28,923 bases of DNA, taken from positions 1 through 28,923 of the IMG/VR virus record IMGVR_UViG_3300044815_000006. One strand, 5' to 3'. This document shows positions 9,017 through 18,696 of the stretch, in pieces; the first letter of the stretch is position 1, and every line of letters begins with the position of its first letter. The DNA comes from a virus. The notes under the pieces were generated by a model. It did not search any database and was not told the DNA's origin. It saw only the letters and a program-made list of their open reading frames with translations. Both the position numbers and the translations under genes were made by a program.

Positions 9017-10278
9017 ACTACTCGAAGATGGTGCCAGCCAACTCACCCATCGGCAAGTACCTCACCTACATGGAAGCGGTAGAGACAGCGAGGAGCTATG
9101 ACTTCTGGTGTGCGATCTGGGCCTTGGGATCAGCCTGTGGGCGATCTGTATACGTGGACCGACCACGAATCCCCGTCTATCTCAACTGGTACGTCATCCT
9201 CTGTGCCGAGTCGGGTATTACACGCAAGTCAACAGCAGTCTTGGCAGCCCGTCGATGGCTTACAGGGTGTGATGGTTCAGCTCCCATCGTTGAGGGTAAG
9301 ACCAATGCTCCTGCACTCACCGCTTTCCTTGGAGGTCGTACCCTTGAGCATGGTCGAGCTGACGTACACCTCGCAGTCTCTGAACTCGCTACAGTGTTGG
9401 GCAAGGGGAGTGAGTCAGTGGGGCTACCGATACTCCTCACTGACTTGTACGATTGCGAATCGAAGAAGGATCTACCTGGAACTATTAGAGACGGAGAGGT
9501 CCATCTGCGGGACGTCTTCGTTACGTTCCTATCTGCTTCAACCCCTACATGGCTTGCCACCGCTGTCTCACCCCAAGTCATTGAAGGCGGCTTTACTTCA
9601 CGAGTCATGTTTATCACAGACGAAACACGTAAGCGATCCGTGCACTGGCCCCGTCCCGAAGATGCAGATGGTTGGTCAGGTTGTGTGGAGAGCTTGGCTC
9701 GATGTGTTGAACAAGCCCGATCCGTATCCAGAATACGGCTCAATCCTGCCGCCATCACTGCACTGGGTTCGTGGTATCGCAATCGCCCAATCAACCGCAC
9801 ACCCTTTCTCTCATCCTTCGACGCCCGTGAGGATGACCATGCTCTACGATTGGCAGCGTGCCTTTCCATCAATGACGGAACATATGAGATTCAGAAGCGA
9901 CACATTGTGTTCGCTGTTCAAGCCATCACAGAAGTCAAGACCAAAGCCAACGATCTCTTCGGTGGGAACTACAATGAGTCCGTACGAATGGGGGATGGCA
10001 TCGATAAGATCCGTCAGGTGTTGATCGAAGCTGGCATGGATGGCATGTCACACAAGGATCTGTACTATCGCTGTCGCTATCGACTCGACGCTCATGAGTT
10101 CAGCACGTTGATGACTGTCATGCACGAGTGCAACATGGTGCAGATCTTCCTCACCAAGAAAGATCCACACAGCAAGAAGCAAGGTGCCCGTCTCTACCGA
10201 GGTACGCAGAAGATCACTGCCCTTGGTATGACGACCGAGCTGCTGGCAAGAGTGAACCTTCCGAGGGGCTCGGTCTAG
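9013..10278 (+). CDS. DUF3987-type helicase/primase-like ATPase, 421 aa
   Basis: A RecA-fold ATPase resembling the DUF3987 (YfjI-like) phage and plasmid replication proteins, which stand in for DnaB-type helicases or helicase-primases. Seen in order: a helix pair with FWCAIWALGSACGRSVYVDR, the P-loop strand WYVILCAESGITRKSTAV (Walker A-like S67-T74 with K72), a Walker B-like strand VHLAVSELATVLG (E124), a sensor strand VTFLSASTPTWL, and GGFTSRVMFI with a candidate arginine finger (R197). The C-terminal 100 residues look like a winged helix (IRQVLIEAGMDGMSHKDLYY). The start is a GTG at 9013 overlapping the upstream stop. The last 65 nt overlap the convergent 1404-aa gene. It is probably the replicative helicase of the phage. 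No primase domain is evident. Confidence 0.78.
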   Translation: MNYSKMVPANSPIGKYLTYMEAVETARSYDFWCAIWALGSACGRSVYVDRPRIPVYLNWYVILCAESGITRKSTAVLAARRWLTGCDGSAPIVEGKTNAPALTAFLGGRTLEHGRADVHLAVSELATVLGKGSESVGLPILLTDLYDCESKKDLPGTIRDGEVHLRDVFVTFLSASTPTWLATAVSPQVIEGGFTSRVMFITDETRKRSVHWPRPEDADGWSGCVESLARCVEQARSVSRIRLNPAAITALGSWYRNRPINRTPFLSSFDAREDDHALRLAACLSINDGTYEIQKRHIVFAVQAITEVKTKANDLFGGNYNESVRMGDGIDKIRQVLIEAGMDGMSHKDLYYRCRYRLDAHEFSTLMTVMHECNMVQIFLTKKDPHSKKQGARLYRGTQKITALGMTTELLARVNLPRGSV

Positions 10279-13200
10279 AACGTGCACCACTGAAGTCCAC
10301 ATGGATGGGGCGGCCGTAGATCCCACTCAGCTTCTGACTGGCAGTCTGTTCCCAGTTCTTCAACGTCCACAACTGCTCAGTGCGTAGCTGATCGATCTTC
10401 AGATTCCATCCATCGATCAAGTCAAGTCGGTCACGTGGCGTGAGCGTCTTCTTGCCTGTCACGTTGGGATCGTTCGTGCTCGTACCAATGGAGGAGATCC
10501 ACATCTTGTACTTGCCGATCTCCTTCTCCTGTGAATCGATATCAGAGAGGATGGGCTTGGCTGACAGTGCGAGGTCTTGATACACAGGGTCCATCGATGG
10601 CACGAGGCTGTTGCCTGCGATGGGTGTACCATCCATCTGCACGAACCCACCAGTGATCAGCACAGAGGCATCGTTGCTGATCGCCTTGAGGTTGCCCTTC
10701 TTGCTCATCACCTGCGACGTAATCTCTCTGTCAGACGAAGGACGGAGGACACCAGGGAACAATGTCTGAAGCGGTCGAAGCTGACTGAGGCCAGCAAGTC
10801 CGAGCGCCTGGATGCTATCACCTGTAGCGTGTAGCATACGCTCAAGATCAGTGCCAGGATTAGCCAGACCAGTATGAAACGCATCAGCCACAGACACGAA
10901 CATAGCACCCGCAGCACCGAACAGCTCCTTGATGACAGCTTCCATGTTCTTATCAACGAACGAGTTGACATACCGCTCTGTCCCTGCATCTGAGTTGAGC
11001 TTCTGACCAGACACCAACGGTGTGCCAGTAATCAACGAACCAGCCTGTCCACCCACACCGATGCCAGCACGGATGTCGATGCCCATCGTCGCACCAAGCA
11101 CACCAAGGGGAGGTGGGATGGCAATGTCAGTGAAGCGTTGTACTGAGTGGCCCCACATGTGACCATTCTCATGCACCATGCCAGCATTGCCAACGTCACT
11201 GAAGTTGAACAGACCATCCATGCCCTCAAGCACCATGGACCTGAACACACCAAGTTCAGGTGAGACAGGGATCAGCACGGCACGATGAGGGTCCACCCCA
11301 GGGATGAGCATGACCATGTTGTCAGCACGCTGTGAGTCAGTGAGAACGTTCCAGTAGTAGTCGTTCTGTGTTCTCATCGTACCGTCAGGCATTGGATACA
11401 GAGTGTCATCTAGCTCAGCGACCATCTGGTTGTATCCCATCTCCATCACGGTAGGGATACCAACCACACCCGCGAGCGCTGGGATGGCCCACTTCGGGTT
11501 CTTCTGGATCGCACGGCCGATGGTGGCGATGGACTGGATGGTGGCACCAGAGAACGGCACAGCCGCGTGCAACAGATCAGTGTTCGCACCACGACGTCTC
11601 ACATCACCAACGAGATCCTTGCTATGAACCATCGCTGATCTGATGTTGTCAGGCGTGACGGCACCAAGCCGCTTCAGCTCAGCCATGGTGGCACCAGTCG
11701 CAGCACCCTCATGAGCGGCACGGTTCAACGCCATCCACACCTTGCCCACCACCTGCATCCCACCGATGCCTAGCTTCTGTGAGAACTGTGGATTGATCTG
11801 TGACAGGATGTCCGTGACGTGACCACCGAACTCAGACGACCCAGACAGCGGACCACTAGCTGAGGTGCCGAACTCCTTCCTCATCGCTCGTACGATGGAT
11901 GTCTGGTAGGCACGCTCTAGCTTAGGGATCATCGCACGTGCGAAGCCAGGGACCAGAGACGAGATACCAGTGTTCGTCTCCAACCCCTGCTTCAGTGCGT
12001 TGCTGAGGATGCGTGACGACTCGTACACGAAGTGAGCCTTCGCTCCCCTGAACGCGTCACTGTAAGCGGTCGCCCCTGATCCCAGAGCACCAAGCATATT
12101 GCCAGGACGGAAGTCCCCTAGCACTCTGTTGAGACTGAGCTGTTGTGCGGCGAACACTCCTGCGATTGGCGCGAACAGGGAGTACGCACCCGTGGTGCCA
12201 GCCGTCATCATCCGCTTGAATGCATTCATGGTCTTGTTCAGAGTACCAGTCAGTGCAGGATTGATCTCCAGTGCTTGACGGAACCCTGCGTGTGGTACAT
12301 GGAATCCGTACTCTTTCCCGTTGATGCGTAGCCATACCGCCTCCGGTCCTATGATGGACTTTGTTGTGTTGGGTTGGGTTGAGTCTTCGTAGAGCTTCTT
12401 GATCTCTCGGTCTGTGGTGTTGAGGTCTACCTTTGCTGTCTCGATGTCACGTGTGCCAATGTAGCGAGGTGCGTAGCGTTCCTCCTGCCCGATGGGCCTG
12501 AGTTGAGTGAGGTCGTGCATACCATGCTGATCTAACACGAGGTTGGTCAGCTTGAACAACACACTCCTCTGTGACTCAGTTGTGTTGAGATGCTTCATCA
12601 AGCCATGAGCGTAGGCACCAGCCGCTATCAATGCGTTCTCAGGTGCGAGGATACCAGCCCCGCTCTCATGCGCCTTCTGATACCACTGAGCCATGGCCTG
12701 TGTCTCTTTGCCTTGGGTAGTGGTGATACCAAACAAGTCAGTCATCTTCGCCAACATGCCACGACCCTCTGTCGCAGTCATGCCAGGAACGTAGGCTGAC
12801 GATCCACCGAACTGCATGCTCGCCTTCAGCTTGTCAGCGAAGGACTTCTTCATCTGCCCGCGAGCTACCACGTAGTCGAGTGAGTCATCCATCCACAGAC
12901 CTAGCTCCTTGGCTAAGTTGTCAAGGTCAGGACGAGACTGTAGCCATGCGGCACTTGTCCTCATCTCCTGCTGAGTGACAGGACGAGCGGGTCCAGTGGC
13001 TCCCTTGTGCGTGTTGCCCCACAGGTTCGCACGCACACGACTGCTGATGTTGTTCGCGTTGATCCACGCCGTGACATCATCTGCTGTCGCAGCTCCATCA
13101 GCCAACATATCATCGAGAGTAGCCCAACGGCCATGACCAGGAGCGTTCTTGTTACGAGAGGCGTAGTCGTATGCCGTGTTCCATGCCGATGTAGCAAGCT

Positions 13201-14428
13201 CATTCCTCGATGCTAGGGCCAGTGCGAATGCGTGTTGATCATCAGGGCTCATCGTAGACAGACGACGATGTATCTCAGACGGAGCGACTGTGCTCTTAGG
13301 TGTGAAGCCTGAGTTGGGAGGCAGCCCGCCCCAGTCGTTGTCAAGGATGGCTTGTGACATGCCATGTGAGTCACGCATGATCTGACCCTGCATGGTCTCC
13401 CACCACGAAGGAGTGTACATGCTACTGTCTTTCAACGCGGACTTGACGAACTGTGCGCTGTCTACTGTATATCCCTTAGCAGCATCCCATCCCTTCGCTG
13501 CTGTCGAGAGGATGTGACGTGTTGTCTCATCACGCCCGCTGGCCCTTGCAAGGCCATCGAAGAACTGATCCACTGGGTGAGGAGAGGATGGTCGTCCGAC
13601 AGGAGCGATACCGGGCTCAGCTCTCGCATCACGGAGAGCAGTCCGATACTTGACAACACCAGCACCGCCAAGAGCAAGAGCCAGTACACTAGCGCCAACC
13701 TTGACACGGTCTTTCCATACTTGTCGTGTTGCTGCCTGATCAGCATCGAGACGTGCCTGTAGGCCCGGATCTTCGTGATCCACCATGACGGCCTGATGAA
13801 CAGGATCGGCGTACTCGATGGTTGGTTCGCGGTCGATAGAGGGCTCTTGATTGGGCACCCCTCCATCAGAGAACAGAGTGGGCCTGTCGCCGTAGGCTCG
13901 AATGCCTTGGTCAATAGTAGTTCCAATGGCAGCCTGAGCGGCAGCTCTAATTGCTGTGGCTCCTGGTGTTGTGTACTTGACTGCTGGTGTGAGGAGGTTA
14001 TAAGCGTTTCGAGCGAGTCTTGATCCGCGACTGAGAGTTGCAGCCGTACCCGCTCCAGGGACGGGGATAAGCGTGCCCAATGCTCGTGCGACTTGATCGA
14101 CTCCTGTGACGGCATCACCCACCCCCAGTTTGCCTTCAACGTAGTGACGTGCGGTGTCACCTGCATCTTGCAGTGTCTTGTCTACGCCCTCTTCACCAGC
14201 CTTATCCCACGTCTTGACGATACCTTCATCACGACTAGGCTTGTCCGTGGCGTAGTTGTACAACGTCTCCAACCCTTGACCAGCTAAGCCGGCTAGGGTT
14301 GGTAGGCCAGTGCCAATGTCACTAACACCAGCAATGAACTGCTTGACAGGATGTGAGCCAGGAGCAGGAGCGTAGTCGATAGACGGCTCTTTGGCCTCAC
14401 TCTGCCACTCGATCAGTGGTTCAGCCAT
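10214..14428 (-). CDS. Large internal virion (ejection) protein, 1404 aa
   Basis: The last and largest gene of the virion arm. Size, position and composition fit the large internal core proteins of podophages (role analogous to T7 gp15/gp16), which leave the capsid with the DNA and form a conduit in the host envelope. Residues 1-300 are Pro/Gly/Ala-rich and contain a repeated motif: EPLIEW (3-8), EPSIDY (14-19), EPSIDR (195-200), EPTIEY (201-206), each group followed by SHPVKQF or SPHPVDQF. A hydrophobic stretch VGASVLALALGGAGVV lies at 244-259. The middle is helical and charged; a Gly/Ala-rich membrane-like segment (GTTGAYSLFAPIAGVFAAQQ) lies about halfway along. No lysozyme or transglycosylase motif is visible. 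Its 5' end overlaps the upstream gene by 16 nt. Confidence 0.75.
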   Translation of the reverse strand: MAEPLIEWQSEAKEPSIDYAPAPGSHPVKQFIAGVSDIGTGLPTLAGLAGQGLETLYNYATDKPSRDEGIVKTWDKAGEEGVDKTLQDAGDTARHYVEGKLGVGDAVTGVDQVARALGTLIPVPGAGTAATLSRGSRLARNAYNLLTPAVKYTTPGATAIRAAAQAAIGTTIDQGIRAYGDRPTLFSDGGVPNQEPSIDREPTIEYADPVHQAVMVDHEDPGLQARLDADQAATRQVWKDRVKVGASVLALALGGAGVVKYRTALRDARAEPGIAPVGRPSSPHPVDQFFDGLARASGRDETTRHILSTAAKGWDAAKGYTVDSAQFVKSALKDSSMYTPSWWETMQGQIMRDSHGMSQAILDNDWGGLPPNSGFTPKSTVAPSEIHRRLSTMSPDDQHAFALALASRNELATSAWNTAYDYASRNKNAPGHGRWATLDDMLADGAATADDVTAWINANNISSRVRANLWGNTHKGATGPARPVTQQEMRTSAAWLQSRPDLDNLAKELGLWMDDSLDYVVARGQMKKSFADKLKASMQFGGSSAYVPGMTATEGRGMLAKMTDLFGITTTQGKETQAMAQWYQKAHESGAGILAPENALIAAGAYAHGLMKHLNTTESQRSVLFKLTNLVLDQHGMHDLTQLRPIGQEERYAPRYIGTRDIETAKVDLNTTDREIKKLYEDSTQPNTTKSIIGPEAVWLRINGKEYGFHVPHAGFRQALEINPALTGTLNKTMNAFKRMMTAGTTGAYSLFAPIAGVFAAQQLSLNRVLGDFRPGNMLGALGSGATAYSDAFRGAKAHFVYESSRILSNALKQGLETNTGISSLVPGFARAMIPKLERAYQTSIVRAMRKEFGTSASGPLSGSSEFGGHVTDILSQINPQFSQKLGIGGMQVVGKVWMALNRAAHEGAATGATMAELKRLGAVTPDNIRSAMVHSKDLVGDVRRRGANTDLLHAAVPFSGATIQSIATIGRAIQKNPKWAIPALAGVVGIPTVMEMGYNQMVAELDDTLYPMPDGTMRTQNDYYWNVLTDSQRADNMVMLIPGVDPHRAVLIPVSPELGVFRSMVLEGMDGLFNFSDVGNAGMVHENGHMWGHSVQRFTDIAIPPPLGVLGATMGIDIRAGIGVGGQAGSLITGTPLVSGQKLNSDAGTERYVNSFVDKNMEAVIKELFGAAGAMFVSVADAFHTGLANPGTDLERMLHATGDSIQALGLAGLSQLRPLQTLFPGVLRPSSDREITSQVMSKKGNLKAISNDASVLITGGFVQMDGTPIAGNSLVPSMDPVYQDLALSAKPILSDIDSQEKEIGKYKMWISSIGTSTNDPNVTGKKTLTPRDRLDLIDGWNLKIDQLRTEQLWTLKNWEQTASQKLSGIYGRPIHVDFSGARSRPSPSEGSLLPAARSSYQGQ

Positions 14429-15249
14429 CCGATGTTCCCAGCCTTGTCTTTGACTTCAGGACGTCCACGAGCATCAACGTTGCCAGTCAACTCGGTATCA
14501 GGAGTGGCCTTGCCCTTTGACTTGAGGTAGTCAAGCGAAGTCTGAGCAGGGTTCGTAGCGGGGGCCGGGGCCTCAGCTTGTGGCTGTTGCTGTTGCTGAC
14601 GCTGTTGAGCACGCTCACGCTTCGATCCATTTGGAGAGTGGGGGATCAGAGGTGTCTCAACGTTCCGTCCCCTCTGTGTCTGTGAAGCGCCAGTCTCTCC
14701 GGTTCTGGTCTCCATCTGAGCCACACCACGATGCTGTCCGGTATTGTCCACCGCACCTGTTCTTGCTACTGTGGCCTTCGTATTGGCTGTTGATGTATTC
14801 ATCGCCTTGCCAGCCGAGATGTCAGTTGGCTCCACACCCATCAACTCTTGTGCTGGGAAGTCAGACGCCTTGAGATCGAGATCATCATCAACCGCACGAC
14901 CACCCTTACGGAAGGACTCAGTACCAGCGCCGATGTTCTTGTAGTTCTCAGCCTCAAGCGCAGACCTCAACTGAGAGGCTCGTAGGGCCGCTGCCTGATG
15001 CGGATCAACCTTCTGTCCGATGTACGCAACGTTCTGCTTGCCTACGTTCTCAAGCCCAGTGTTGTCGAGCTGGCCTCGGTTGATGAGCTGTTGCTTGCTC
15101 ATAGCTTGGTTGCCTTCGAGGTTCTGCATCCCAAGCTTCAGTGCAGCCTGATCAGCTTGAGCACTAGAGGCCATGGCTCCCGCCTTGCGACGAGCAACAT
15201 CAGCACCGTACGCTTCAAGATCAGCGAATGGATTGTACTCAGCGGGCAT
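14413..15249 (-). CDS. Probable internal virion protein, 278 aa
   Basis: A hydrophilic, Ala/Gln/Gly-rich protein with no recognised domain. Residues 1-110 are helical and polar (ADVARRKAGAMASSAQADQA, then MSKQQLINRGQ). Residues about 120-230 are low-complexity Thr/Gly/Asn-rich, followed by a glutamine run (QQRQQQQQPQ) and an Ala/Pro stretch, and a C-terminal segment with NVDARGRPEVKDKAGN. It sits between two other internal virion candidates, starts with AGGA nine bases upstream, and overlaps the 1404-aa gene by 16 nt. Composition and location suggest a structural or ejection protein. This role is by context only. Confidence 0.6.
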   Translation of the reverse strand: MPAEYNPFADLEAYGADVARRKAGAMASSAQADQAALKLGMQNLEGNQAMSKQQLINRGQLDNTGLENVGKQNVAYIGQKVDPHQAAALRASQLRSALEAENYKNIGAGTESFRKGGRAVDDDLDLKASDFPAQELMGVEPTDISAGKAMNTSTANTKATVARTGAVDNTGQHRGVAQMETRTGETGASQTQRGRNVETPLIPHSPNGSKRERAQQRQQQQQPQAEAPAPATNPAQTSLDYLKSKGKATPDTELTGNVDARGRPEVKDKAGNIGWLNH

Positions 15250-15251
15250 GA

Positions 15252-16127
15252 TCAGTATCCTGTCAGAGCTTCATCGTACGTGGGCATCTGGGGCGTAGGA
15301 CCGTTCGCTTTATTGCCCAGCGACGCATCGAGGTACGACCACAATCTATTCTGATTGGCTGTGGCCTTCTCATCCGCAGCGTTAGCAGAGATCGTGCTGC
15401 CTAGTGTAGCAAGCGCGTTGCCTACGTTCGGAGACGGCGCGTTCTGTGGCGTCGCTGTCGATCCAATCCCCTGCAACATCTGCATGAGGTCAGCCGTGCT
15501 CGTAGATGGATCAAGTGCAGCCTTCGAAGACATGGCTACGCCTTCGAGGGGCTTGAGGTAGTTGTTCAAGTAGGCGTCGCGCGTGCCACCAAACAGATCT
15601 TGAACGTCCTTCTCCTTGCCGTAATCGATCTGCGGCAGGAGACGTTCCATCGCACGGTTGACGATGTTCGATTGGTTCGAGGAGCCACCTTGTGTGCGCT
15701 GTCCAATGACGGCAGCATCCCGCAATGCTGGATTCACCATCGAATTGAACAGCCTATCGTTGTCACTATTCACCGCATTGCGTGCGTTGTCTAGTGACAT
15801 CCCTGGGGCACCACCCGATGTGGCCAAGTCACTGAACAGCTTGGGCAAATCCTTGGCAGCACCAGCCCCCGCACCTTGTATGCCCTTGTTGATGCTCTGT
15901 GTGCCAGGAGACAACACGTCTTCGAAGTTGCCGGTGCCTGCATTGAACTTGCCGAATGTGTCACCGACACTATTCGTGCGACCAGCGTTGATGACCTTCT
16001 CACGCTGAGCACGATCCTTGTTTGCGTTCTCTGCGTAGAGATCGTTCGACTCCTGTTGATCCTGTGATCCAAGGAACGACCCAAGCAGAGACCCTGCACC
16101 GGACAAGTAGCTTCCCCAATCAGCCAT
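15252..16127 (-). CDS. Probable internal virion/ejection protein, 291 aa
   Basis: A polar, Asn/Gly/Ser-rich protein. The N-terminus begins WGSYLSGAGSLLGSFLGSQD, a short glycine-zipper-like amphipathic stretch seen in small podophage ejection proteins (T7 gp14 type), followed by a helix DLYAENANKDRAQREKVINA. The rest is helical and low in aromatics, ending in MPTYDEALTGY. Its start overlaps the stop of the 514-aa gene by one base, and it ends two bases before the start of the next gene, so these genes form one tight operon. The ejection role is inferred from size, composition and position. Confidence 0.6.
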   Translation of the reverse strand: MADWGSYLSGAGSLLGSFLGSQDQQESNDLYAENANKDRAQREKVINAGRTNSVGDTFGKFNAGTGNFEDVLSPGTQSINKGIQGAGAGAAKDLPKLFSDLATSGGAPGMSLDNARNAVNSDNDRLFNSMVNPALRDAAVIGQRTQGGSSNQSNIVNRAMERLLPQIDYGKEKDVQDLFGGTRDAYLNNYLKPLEGVAMSSKAALDPSTSTADLMQMLQGIGSTATPQNAPSPNVGNALATLGSTISANAADEKATANQNRLWSYLDASLGNKANGPTPQMPTYDEALTGY

Positions 16128-17671
16128 CAGAATACTCCTGACCCGCTAGTGCCTACACCGCGAGTGCGACCCTTGTTGAGATTACGATTGGCGAGTTGAT
16201 CGAGTACGCCGTTGCTCGAACCAGCACCACTCACCTGTCCTTGCTGAGCACCAGCCGTGTTCAATGACGAGTGTACATCGAACAGGTTCTGAGAGCCAAG
16301 CAACGATCCGATGTCATCACTGAACGTGCCCTGTTCCTGCTTGGCTGTGTTGTCACGTTCTGTGGTGTATGGATCGACACTGAAGTCAGGACCACCCAAC
16401 GTGTAGTTGCTGGCCCCAGTTAGAGCCTTGTCACGGATCGCACTGAACTTCGGAGCGTCAGCATCTTGAACTGAGTGAGCCGCAGCATCGATCTTCGTAC
16501 GAGCACCCGCACGTTGGTTGCTGAGGTTGGTCTGTGCGATGCCCACACCAGCACCTGACAGGTTGCCACGCGATGCGAACCTACCTATCTCAGCCGACGA
16601 CTCATTGAACTTGTTGTTCAGGAAGTTATCGACTGAGGTGTTGAACTCCTCCGGCGAGAATAGACCACCTCCTTCCGGGAATGCCTTGTTGACGTCACCT
16701 GTGTACTGATCACGGAACTCGTTCTGCTTCGTGTCGAAGGCGCTGTTAGCGAGCCCTTGTCCGACCTGATCGTTGAGCAACGCTTCGTAGTTGCTGTCTG
16801 GGTTGAACTGACTGAAGATGTCGTTCACTTGCTTGATGGCAGGCGCTTCGTAGCCTTTGCCTTGAACGTGACGTGTCTGTGTAGCCGAGTCGACGCCCAT
16901 CAATGCCGCTTGCAGGGCCTTGCTCGCACGTACTGGATCGAACACCGTGTTACCACGTCCGCCCATGAAGTCACGAAGCGCACCGATGTTGTCACTACCA
17001 GTCGCTCCGTCTGTAGGTCCGAAGCCATCTGGCCCTGGTGTGTAGTCAATGCCCAACGCTGACATGAGGGACTTCATGCCCTCGCCCAGCATCGACACGC
17101 CCTTGTTCATCATGCCTGGAGTTGAGAAAGGTGACTGGCCCCATGTATTGAGCATCGTGCCAAAGGGATCAGCCTTCAGCTTCTCGATGTCAGGCAACCC
17201 AAGCAGGCTGCTGATGTTGCCCCAGATGTCATTACGGTTGGCCGCATTCATGGCCTCTTGAGCAGCTTGGGCGGCCTCTGGTCCCCCTGGATAGGAGGTT
17301 GATCCAGCTACTCCACCGTCTCCCCAAGAACCATCAGGACCAGATCCTTGTCCTATGGCGTCATTGTTAGGTCCATCACTAAGAGAATCGTTGCCGTACT
17401 TATCAGCGCCATCCCCACCAACGTCACTACCAACGTTGTCCGATCCATCTTCGTCATCGAACTCCTTGGCACCTGTCTTCGGGTTGACGGAGTCGTCCTT
17501 CCCGCCGACCTGATACCTACCGAAGCGTTGACCAAGTGTCTGCTTCGCATGAGCCAGTAGCTCAGGAGTCTGTGCCGACTTGGGTAGGACAATCTCACCA
17601 GGCGTTAGATGCCCGATGGTCTTGTCACCACCGCGCCCCTTCTTCGATAGATGAGCAACGACCTTGTTCAT
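16127..17671 (-). CDS. Virion-associated protein with N-terminal HLTPGE module, 514 aa
   Basis: The N-terminal 71 residues carry a compact module I have seen at the start of internal virion proteins in other short-tailed phages: GDKTIGHLTPGEIVLP (15-30), a helix TPELLAHAKQTLG, RYQVGG (52-57) and SVNPKTGAKEF (61-71). It is followed by an acidic Gly/Asp/Ser-rich linker to about residue 130. The remainder is helical and Asn/Gly-rich with a repeated SNxxG flavour near the C-terminus. No enzymatic motif is recognised. The start ATG at 17671 lies ten bases after the lipoprotein stop codon. It is most likely an ejection or internal core protein. The module itself has no function I can name. Confidence 0.6.
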   Translation of the reverse strand: MNKVVAHLSKKGRGGDKTIGHLTPGEIVLPKSAQTPELLAHAKQTLGQRFGRYQVGGKDDSVNPKTGAKEFDDEDGSDNVGSDVGGDGADKYGNDSLSDGPNNDAIGQGSGPDGSWGDGGVAGSTSYPGGPEAAQAAQEAMNAANRNDIWGNISSLLGLPDIEKLKADPFGTMLNTWGQSPFSTPGMMNKGVSMLGEGMKSLMSALGIDYTPGPDGFGPTDGATGSDNIGALRDFMGGRGNTVFDPVRASKALQAALMGVDSATQTRHVQGKGYEAPAIKQVNDIFSQFNPDSNYEALLNDQVGQGLANSAFDTKQNEFRDQYTGDVNKAFPEGGGLFSPEEFNTSVDNFLNNKFNESSAEIGRFASRGNLSGAGVGIAQTNLSNQRAGARTKIDAAAHSVQDADAPKFSAIRDKALTGASNYTLGGPDFSVDPYTTERDNTAKQEQGTFSDDIGSLLGSQNLFDVHSSLNTAGAQQGQVSGAGSSNGVLDQLANRNLNKGRTRGVGTSGSGVF

Positions 17672-17680
17672 GACTCAGTC

Positions 17681-18034
17681 CTACGGTACGAGCATCGCGC
17701 CCATCACAGCACGCACGATAGCGTCTGCGATCTGAGGAGCAGTCTGACCAGCGGTCTGGATCAGTGCCTGATCAACAGCCGCGCGCAACGCCTGACCATC
17801 AAACGCTTTGACGTCAGTTGCGTTGTAGGTGAACGTGCCTTCACCAAGGTTACCTTTGAATGCAACGTTCGCCTTCTCCTTGCCATCGATGTACTCGATA
17901 GCAGAGGCACACTCAGCCAGCGACGGGCCATCACACACAGGCTTCATCGTGATCCTGACTGATGTCAGCCCTGCGTACTGTTGCGTAGAGCAAGCACCGA
18001 GGAACAGGAGAGGGATGAGTAACAGGCGTTTCAT
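17681..18034 (-). CDS. Lipoprotein, 117 aa
   Basis: The N-terminus MKRLLLIPLLFLGACSTQQY is a clear type II signal peptide with lipobox LGAC and Cys15 as the lipidated residue. Position +2 is Ser, which in Gram-negative hosts favours outer-membrane sorting. The mature part is predicted to be strand-rich first (SVRITMKPVC, then KANVAFKGNLGEGTFTYNA) with two more cysteines (VCDGPSLAEC) that could form a disulfide. It ends in an amphipathic helical region with a hydrophobic tail (IVRAVMGAMLVP). The ATG overlaps the upstream small membrane gene as ATGA; AGGAG is eleven bases upstream. It might be an outer-membrane spanin-type protein or an exclusion factor, but no spanin partner is evident. Confidence 0.7.
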   Translation of the reverse strand: MKRLLLIPLLFLGACSTQQYAGLTSVRITMKPVCDGPSLAECASAIEYIDGKEKANVAFKGNLGEGTFTYNATDVKAFDGQALRAAVDQALIQTAGQTAPQIADAIVRAVMGAMLVP

Positions 18035-18195
18035 TTCTTCTTGTTCTCCTGGATGTGAGACCACACCGACCAGCCAATCGTGACGGCTAATGTGATCGCA
18101 CCAATAAGCGCGTTCATGTCACCGTCACTGATCAGCCCACCACCGAGCGCAGAGAACAACGCCCTGATGATGCCTCCAACGATCTTCGCAATCAT
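18031..18195 (-). CDS. Small membrane protein, holin candidate, 54 aa
   Basis: A 54-residue protein with two hydrophobic stretches: MIAKIVGGIIRALFSALGGG at the N-terminus and MNALIGAITLAVTIGWSVWS at 27-46, and a basic end QENKKK. This layout (R-x-L-x5-GGG, then a polar turn, then GAI...WSVW plus a Lys tail) resembles Pam3-gp28-type small phage holins. The ATG at 18195 has AAAGGG eight bases upstream, and the stop codon overlaps the lipoprotein start (ATGA). Two other small membrane genes lie just upstream, so this looks like a lysis cassette, but no endolysin gene is in the window. Confidence 0.65.
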   Translation of the reverse strand: MIAKIVGGIIRALFSALGGGLISDGDMNALIGAITLAVTIGWSVWSHIQENKKK

Positions 18196-18217
18196 GACCC
18201 AGCCCTTTCAAGACTAG

Positions 18218-18403
18218 TTAGATACTAAGTAGTGACACTCCTAGTGCACGGGATAGCAACTCGATGCACACGATGAAACAGATCACACCATAGATGCACC
18301 ACAGAATGAGGGCGATCGGAGGCTCTGCGGGGATCTTGCTGATGCCATACGCAAGCAACACAAGGATGCACGCGCATGCAAGGATGACGAGGATCAATCC
18401 CAT
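18218..18403 (-). CDS. Small two-helix membrane protein, 61 aa
   Basis: A 61-residue protein made almost entirely of two transmembrane helices, LILVILACACILVLLAYGI (about 3-21) and IALILWCIYGVICFIVCIEL (about 30-49), linked by a short turn SKIPAEPP. Five cysteines lie in the helices. The ATG at 18403 follows AGGA. Upstream in-frame sequence is open to 18499 but overlaps the neighbouring gene and is less likely. A holin, antiholin or membrane accessory role is suggested by its neighbours and hydrophobicity only. Confidence 0.6.
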   Translation of the reverse strand: MGLILVILACACILVLLAYGISKIPAEPPIALILWCIYGVICFIVCIELLSRALGVSLLSI

Positions 18404-18411
18404 AAGATGTC

Positions 18412-18687
18412 CTAACCTGCTGACAGGTTGTGAAGGTTCGTAGCCACGAAGGCACAGAACCCGGCGATGATGGTCGCCAACATGAGTAGCACAGCCCATA
18501 TGAAGCGCACCACGAGTTGATGCATCTCACCCTTGAAGGTACTGATGCGGCGATGAAGCGTCTCTAGCTTGTCACCGATCTCCTGATATCGCTGCCCACA
18601 AATCGAATCGTGGGCATGATGCTGAACTTCTATCACTGCTAACCTCGTCTCTAGTGACGTGTCAGCCCTCCGATCTCCGTCGCTCAT
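18412..18687 (-). CDS. Coiled-coil protein with C-terminal transmembrane helix, 91 aa
   Basis: The first 60 residues are charged and heptad-like (LETRLAVIEVQHHAHDSICG, then YQEIGDKLETLHRRISTFKG), followed by one transmembrane helix FIWAVLLMLATIIAGFCAFV and a short tail. The layout resembles XhlA-type (hemolysin/holin partner) phage proteins: a soluble coiled coil anchored by a C-terminal helix. Two start codons are adjacent (18690 and 18687); AAGGGG is six bases from 18687, which I prefer. It is located between the tail fibre and the two small membrane proteins, and is a candidate member of a lysis cassette. Confidence 0.65.
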   Translation of the reverse strand: MSDGDRRADTSLETRLAVIEVQHHAHDSICGQRYQEIGDKLETLHRRISTFKGEMHQLVVRFIWAVLLMLATIIAGFCAFVATNLHNLSAG

Positions 18688-18696
18688 CATCCCCCC

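Follow-up and report, generated by a model that had tools for sequence, protein, structure and literature searches.

Known systems closest to the module

Among described systems, the MuF toxins of phages are the closest known kind to the proteins treated here. As passages of two papers describe them, MuF toxins are phage-encoded, carry MuF at the N-terminus and small open reading frames (ORFs) downstream, are much more abundant in Firmicutes, and have been proposed to be delivered by phages (PMC5576092, PMC3482391). Part of a further paper assigns Bxa to the MuF type (PMC11699363), and passages of a paper on polyvalent proteins describe virion-packaged effectors with MuF; the motif considered here is absent from those passages (PMC5512222). 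This motif belongs to a module that heads a 514-amino-acid (aa) protein of a virus, encoded in IMG/VR record IMGVR_UViG_3300044815_000006. The whole record, 28,923 bases long, was analyzed and is referred to as the window. The same module heads proteins of other phages and, in bacterial genomes, a family of proteins that are here called toxin-type. Loci are numbered with L and genomes with G.

Like MuF toxins, the toxin-type proteins share an N-terminal domain and have many C-terminal effectors, a small partner gene, and proposed phage delivery; in four clusters, though not in the solitary copies, they are also encoded among phage head genes. However, the N-terminal domains are different, and no MuF match was found in the window protein or in 20 toxin-type proteins scanned. 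MuF toxins are known mainly from phages of Firmicutes, whereas the toxin-type proteins occur in metagenome-assembled genomes (MAGs) of the order to which genome G001 belongs. Unlike MuF, the module also heads proteins of phages that have no effector domain.

Part of the module has a counterpart in tail tape measure proteins (L001-L003), in which D.....LTPGEIVLP is followed by a helix, with the aspartate and the PGE turn at the same spacing. However, the tape-measure motif lacks H21 and the NPxTGxxEF half of the module and lies inside the tape measure proteins, not at the N-terminus. Some phage proteins have both. In one of them (L115:6090-8426), the module is near the N-terminus and a tape-measure-like DGEFV motif near the C-terminus; the corresponding C-terminal region of L116, a relative of this protein, is matched by tail tape measure proteins. 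A short form of the module, GRGQDTMLAHITP.E...NPATGLREY, is found in Phage DSL-LC04, where it stands near residue 160 of a protein of 759 aa; further genes follow, and one for a ‘DNA transfer protein’. Unlike in the module, the middle helix of the short form is nearly absent. By BLAST, the short form also occurs in Methylophilales phage Venkman EXVC282S and two other records. Pesticin-type bacteriocins, which carry a TonB-box-like stretch before a lysozyme-type domain, resemble one toxin-type protein (L022:5640-6788) in this respect. They differ from the toxin-type proteins, which show no recognised receptor-binding domain and have a phage-type N-terminal module. Neither the module nor the toxin family is named in the titles and abstracts found by a literature search that had subscription papers outside its scope.

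A conserved domain with a predicted compact fold

Residues 10-73 of the 514-aa protein are a real N-terminal domain, predicted to be compact and to fold independently. A preliminary description of the window had delimited a module at positions 17459-17629. These positions correspond exactly to residues 15-71, with the text as quoted, and the conserved unit starts slightly earlier, at about residue 10. A DNA pattern requiring nothing but PGE, 29-39 residues, and NPxTGxxEF (E and F codons fixed) yielded 18 stretches from viral and 26 from genome contigs. The module is in frame in 17 of the viral and 10 of the genome stretches; one genome stretch (L031) holds a frame-broken module, and the remaining one and 15, respectively, have none. 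The lower yield from genomes fits the far larger size of that collection. Outside the pattern, D16, H21, and G56 are invariant in an alignment of 22 rows, in which G12, R13, P30, and G47 are conserved in at least 90%. Over the whole module, the invariant residues among 75 rows are D16, H21, G25, G56, and G67. When hidden Markov models (HMMs) are trained on half of the family, they recover every member of the other half and none of 1,500 shuffled decoys. Scanning viral contigs with a profile yielded at least 500 candidate stretches, of which 356 were confirmed and 80 kept.

The fold predicted from 75 sequences is compact, with a predicted local distance difference test score (pLDDT) of 87 (range over five models, 73 to 87) and a predicted template modelling score (pTM) of 0.63. 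It consists of a helix (residues 3-10), a short strand (20-21), a second helix (36-53), and a hairpin (61-62/69-70) with NPKTG at its turn. Two viral models in a public library of models resemble the module, with template modelling (TM) scores of 0.74 (E 7e-4) and 0.77 (E 0.19), and the PDB holds no match at E 0.001 or better, by fold or by sequence. No family of Pfam (22 rows), PHROG, or NCBIfam (75 rows) covers the module, which receives sporadic weak matches only. Direct searches of named phages with the window protein or its module gave nothing convincing and one chance-level match (E 8). Against viral contigs, the full 514-aa protein found no match and the module alone only three tape-measure half-motifs; queries from other module loci reached named phages through their C-terminal parts only, or not at all.

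The preliminary description had also suggested that the module could be a self-processing tag, with cleavage near NPKTG. Conserved D, H, N, T, and E residues would suit such an activity. However, NPxTG is the turn of a beta-hairpin within the predicted fold, no peptidase family matches the module in Pfam (22 rows), and NCBIfam yields one borderline match, to a deacetylase, in 75 rows (E 0.009). Self-processing is therefore not supported and appears very improbable. A sortase-type reading of NPxTG was likewise set aside on the predicted hairpin turn.

Mobility of the module

The module had been described as a mobile N-terminal unit, and this is borne out by what stands behind it. With the module removed, 68 C-terminal parts of at least 60 aa, including that of the window protein, form 29 BLAST clusters (E 1e-3, single linkage), the largest with 24 members and 18 with one, although remote homology between clusters is possible. 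The module is thus not confined to full-length homologs that share a C-terminal part. In the three proteins whose modules are closest to that of the window (L049, L050, and L051; aligned stretches 56-62% identical), the sequence behind the module differs. Even between the window protein and its counterpart in the related phage L174, BLAST aligns residues 4-78 only, despite capsid proteins that are 69% identical; a MAFFT alignment of the two gives a hint of remote similarity past the module. In L061:6905-9145, a full module is accompanied by a second, weakly scoring half-module about 150 residues further on in the same protein. Two other module loci, L024 and L048, come from isolate genomes, as putative Azospirillum prophages.

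P22-type DNA transfer or ejection proteins (p32/gp7-like) show the same independence. The domain behind the module in L015 resembles proteins annotated in named phages as ‘DNA transfer’ or ‘DNA ejection’, and the window protein has a predicted helical hairpin with an RG.LSG-like turn. Phages DSL-LC05, D478, CBW1004C-Prop1, and ctfPj964 each have a counterpart of 203-248 aa that matches the L015 domain. However, no module was detected in the DNA-transfer proteins of these four phages or in the surrounding stretch.

A compact fold with strongly conserved residues, found at differing distances from the protein N-terminus, could also be a plain structural dock that anchors proteins in the capsid or portal during assembly, with no role in exit, and that is re-used differently outside phages. 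However, such a dock leaves unexplained why the multi-copy bacterial hydrolases described below retain the module, and this account is judged decidedly unlikely.

Toxin-type relatives in bacterial genomes

A genome scan led to bacterial MAGs whose titles name Rhodospirillaceae or Marinimicrobia and in which the module is present in as many as seven copies (G001). At E 1e-5, the module is present in 20 of 297 genomes of that order, including 12 strong carriers (best E 5e-24 or better). Two genomes titled Candidatus Marinimicrobia (G002 and G003, with loci L032 and L038) group with the order of the Rhodospirillaceae MAG, and their titles may be wrong. The toxin-type proteins have a common plan: behind a short N-terminal lead, which is of two main kinds, come the module, a linker, and a C-terminal part that varies. 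Pfam was scanned with 20 of about 51 such proteins. Eight have a peptidoglycan-acting family above the curated cut-off, namely Phage_lysozyme (6e-23), 3D (3e-11), Glucosaminidase (4e-8, 4e-9, and 1e-7), Peptidase_M23 (3e-7), Peptidase_M15_4 (7e-13), and DPBB_1 (6e-11). Five more fall below it (Hydrolase_2 twice, once in a piece of a frame-broken copy, Peptidase_M74 twice, and VanY once), and seven show nothing relevant. The wall hydrolases at the C-termini are thus of lysozyme, glucosaminidase, M23, M15, 3D, and lytic transglycosylase kinds. C-terminal parts with no recognised Pfam family (L036:1852-2748, L022:783-1886, L059:4189-5505, and L217) are candidate new effector domains.

The gene that follows appears to be of signal-peptide or transmembrane type in 27 of 34 toxin-type cases, two of which had no neighbor called, versus 78 of 345 control genes (P 6e-11); genes were called with a home-made greedy caller, and a simple hydrophobicity rule served as the signal-peptide test for both sets. 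When two loci have homologous toxin C-termini, their partners are homologous as well in 3 of 15 comparisons; for the remaining cross-locus pairs the figure is 5 of 439 (P 0.0015), although the pairs are not independent and 12 of the 15 have no such partners. The apparent location of the partners matches the compartment of the wall enzymes' target. Together, toxin-type genes and partners are laid out like effector-immunity pairs directed at the cell wall, in which the former would be toxins and the latter immunity proteins. A single N-terminal domain with many unrelated C-terminal effectors is also the arrangement of polymorphic toxins. In all 19 solitary loci compared, the GC content at third codon positions (GC3) of the toxin-type genes lies below the median of the surroundings, and its mean is 0.61 for 22 toxin-type genes and 0.54 for 22 partners, versus 0.76 for 151 other genes. 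The low GC3 of the solitary genes suggests arrival by transfer. Frame-broken module-toxin genes are present in L031 and in G004 contigs C9 and C24 (L186 and L185), which suggests decay or turnover.

An N-terminal domain on polymorphic wall-hydrolase effectors, with partner genes resembling those of type VI secretion system (T6SS) effectors, might be a secretion marker such as MIX, FIX, RIX, or WHIX. However, the domain also occurs in phages, and the VipB/TssC sheath gene, found in 28 of the 297 genomes of the order, is present in 1 of the 20 carriers overall and in none of the 12 strong carriers (draft genomes). About one T6SS carrier among 12 is expected by chance, so this absence shows only that T6SS is not needed. 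Delivery by T6SS was set aside, and a T6SS marker is an extremely improbable identity for the module.

Link between phage-type and toxin-type modules

The two sets of modules are homologous. An HMM built only from toxin-type modules recovers all 45 phage modules (worst E 1.6e-14), one built only from phage modules recovers all 30 toxin-type modules, and neither recovers a decoy. In a tree, the toxin-type modules form one side of a single branch, with a Shimodaira-Hasegawa approximate likelihood-ratio test (SH-aLRT) value of 87, although 38 of the 72 inner branches are unresolved. Midpoint rooting places them among the phage modules. A single branch nested among phage modules suggests one recruitment of the module from phages by the toxin family.

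Toxin-type genes also stand among portal, scaffold, and capsid genes in four clusters (G005, G009, G010, and G248). By their PHROG names, G005 has a head protein and a terminase, G248 a head protein and a scaffold, G009 a portal and an endolysin, and G010 a portal and a terminase. Of the ten proteins compared with PHROG, a single one, of 403 aa in G009, was without a match. Across genomes, three of five capsid-positive genomes carry the module versus 20 of 297 overall, an association that is no more than suggestive, because G001 and G005 had been identified as carriers beforehand. In the phage clusters, partner genes are related even where toxin C-termini are unrelated (five cross-locus pairs among L169, L170, L171, L184, and L217), and most partner genes of L170, L171, and L217 lie on the strand opposite to the toxin.

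The head-gene neighborhood in four clusters and the exported or membrane-type partners would also suit a different account, in which the wall hydrolases are ordinary virion lysins that aid DNA entry, and lysogens produce the partners as periplasmic inhibitors to exclude related phages. The module would still be a virion tag. However, several gene copies in tandem that encode different enzymes, and solitary pairs amid housekeeping genes, look like polymorphic toxins, and ordinary lysins seem an improbable description of the family.

A candidate sorting domain for phage-particle cargo

To our knowledge, how short-tailed phages choose, load, and eject internal proteins is open in general terms. 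A conserved 60-residue domain that recurs on many partners is a candidate signal for the loading or ejection of phage cargo. The best explanation is that the module is an N-terminal sorting domain, for loading or ejection, of phage-particle cargo, which was recruited once by polymorphic wall-attacking toxins (probability about 0.48). This explanation is drawn from four properties: the module is predicted to fold alone, is constant while the rest of the protein changes, stands in what appears to be an ejection-gene region, and is fused to periplasm-targeting enzymes. Wall enzymes fit injected cargo because their target, the periplasm, is where an injected protein arrives.

In the window phage, the module would dock the 514-aa protein inside the particle or guide its exit with the DNA. 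It would have been taken up, probably in a single event, as the N-terminal part of a polymorphic peptidoglycan-degrading family whose partners would be periplasmic or membrane proteins; members of this family are encoded both among phage head genes and, in Rhodospirillaceae-type genomes, as solitary pairs. The toxin-type proteins would then ride in particles, and the module may act at loading, at exit, or at both. The targeting tag proposed in the preliminary description is thus the role that the evidence best supports, tentatively. Its restriction to internal virion proteins was too narrow, as the same domain also heads bacterial wall-hydrolase genes with immunity-like partners. If the module does load antibacterial enzymes, the DNA-ejection machinery would be linked to bacterial warfare, and the module could be used to search for a new toxin-immunity family where genomes showed no T6SS.

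Several observations weigh against a sorting role. On the phage side, a giant gene lies downstream of the module gene in 16 of 20 phages versus 48 of 83 controls, a weak excess, and a profile of DNA-transfer proteins scores the C-terminal part of the window protein no higher than shuffled copies. A clearly acidic linker is present in only 8 of 48 phage-type module proteins, and the full-length model of the window protein, built from five rows, puts most of the module below pLDDT 70. On the bacterial side, most toxin-type genes are outside phage clusters, as solitary copies in housekeeping surroundings. A capsid profile is matched in only 3 of the 12 strong carriers (G001, G005, and G248), so that no particle is in evidence for the other nine (draft genomes), and G001 has its capsid cluster on a different contig from its module genes. 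Finally, a TonB-box-like heptapeptide occurs in 13 of 34 toxin-type linkers, compared with a mean of 0.56 and a maximum of 4 in 500 shuffles.

The heptapeptide and the exported or membrane type of the partners point to an envelope-transit domain, which would help a released protein bind or cross the outer membrane of the target. The toxins would then be bacteriocins imported via TonB, and the module would do the same job for ejected phage proteins. However, the TonB-box-like pattern was written after inspection of the sequences, and no receptor-binding domain was recognised in Pfam scans of toxin-type proteins. The motif is also found in none of 55 phage-type proteins and is therefore not part of the module. 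Envelope transit, although the chief alternative to a sorting role, is considered unlikely.

The sorting-domain explanation has a bolder extension, in which Alphaproteobacteria inject proteins into competitors by means of phages or of particles derived from them. Wall-cutting toxins, each with a periplasmic or membrane immunity protein, would be loaded by a domain that is not MuF but stems from the ejection proteins of short-tailed phages, and the module of the window would be the ancestral virion-cargo signal. This extension is doubtful.

The window phage and its 514-aa gene

Pfam identifies a P22-like portal in the window (E 7.9e-7) and PHROG a major head protein (E 1.2e-49); a DNA polymerase and a helicase are encoded as well. 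Behind the 514-aa gene come genes for proteins of 291, 278, and 1404 aa (Table 1), an order that would correspond to the ejection-protein cassette of a short-tailed phage. L174 has a similar gene order, and the cassette layout is seen in the window and in L172-L174, L190, and L191. The portal and the giant protein of the window, used as queries, yielded no relatives.

Table 1. Positions of the module, its protein, and the neighboring genes in the window
Feature	Positions	Strand	Basis and remarks
514-aa protein headed by the module	16127..17671	minus	ATG start; putative first gene of ejection-protein cassette; same position in relative L174; presumed virion protein
Module, residues 10-73 (GR-G-D....GHLTPGE.V.P, helix 36-53, VGG..DS.NPxTGxxEF)	17453..17644	minus	Alignments and predicted fold (pLDDT 87); includes 17459-17629
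Acidic Gly/Ser/Asp-rich linker behind the module, about residues 72-120	17312..17458	minus	Net charge -10 over residues 72-111; pLDDT low throughout
Long helical hairpin (predicted), residues 340-422; SRGNLSG turn similar to DNA-transfer proteins	16406..16654	minus	Likeness by motif only
291-aa protein, next gene after the 514-aa gene	15252..16127	minus	Weak match to ‘pilot protein for DNA ejection’ (E 0.019)
278-aa protein, same cassette	14413..15249	minus	Position only
1404-aa giant protein, end of cassette, putative large ejection protein	10214..14428	minus	No family match of note; 1294-aa protein at equivalent place in L174

The full-length model of the 514-aa protein, from five alignment rows, is poor (pLDDT 44). 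Within it, the hairpin has block pLDDT values of 84-93 at residues 341-400 and of 59-69 at residues 401-420. Upstream of the 514-aa gene, positions 17681-18690 of the minus strand hold a 127-aa lipoprotein-like ORF and membrane-type ORFs of 92/93 aa, which are probably a lysis cassette.
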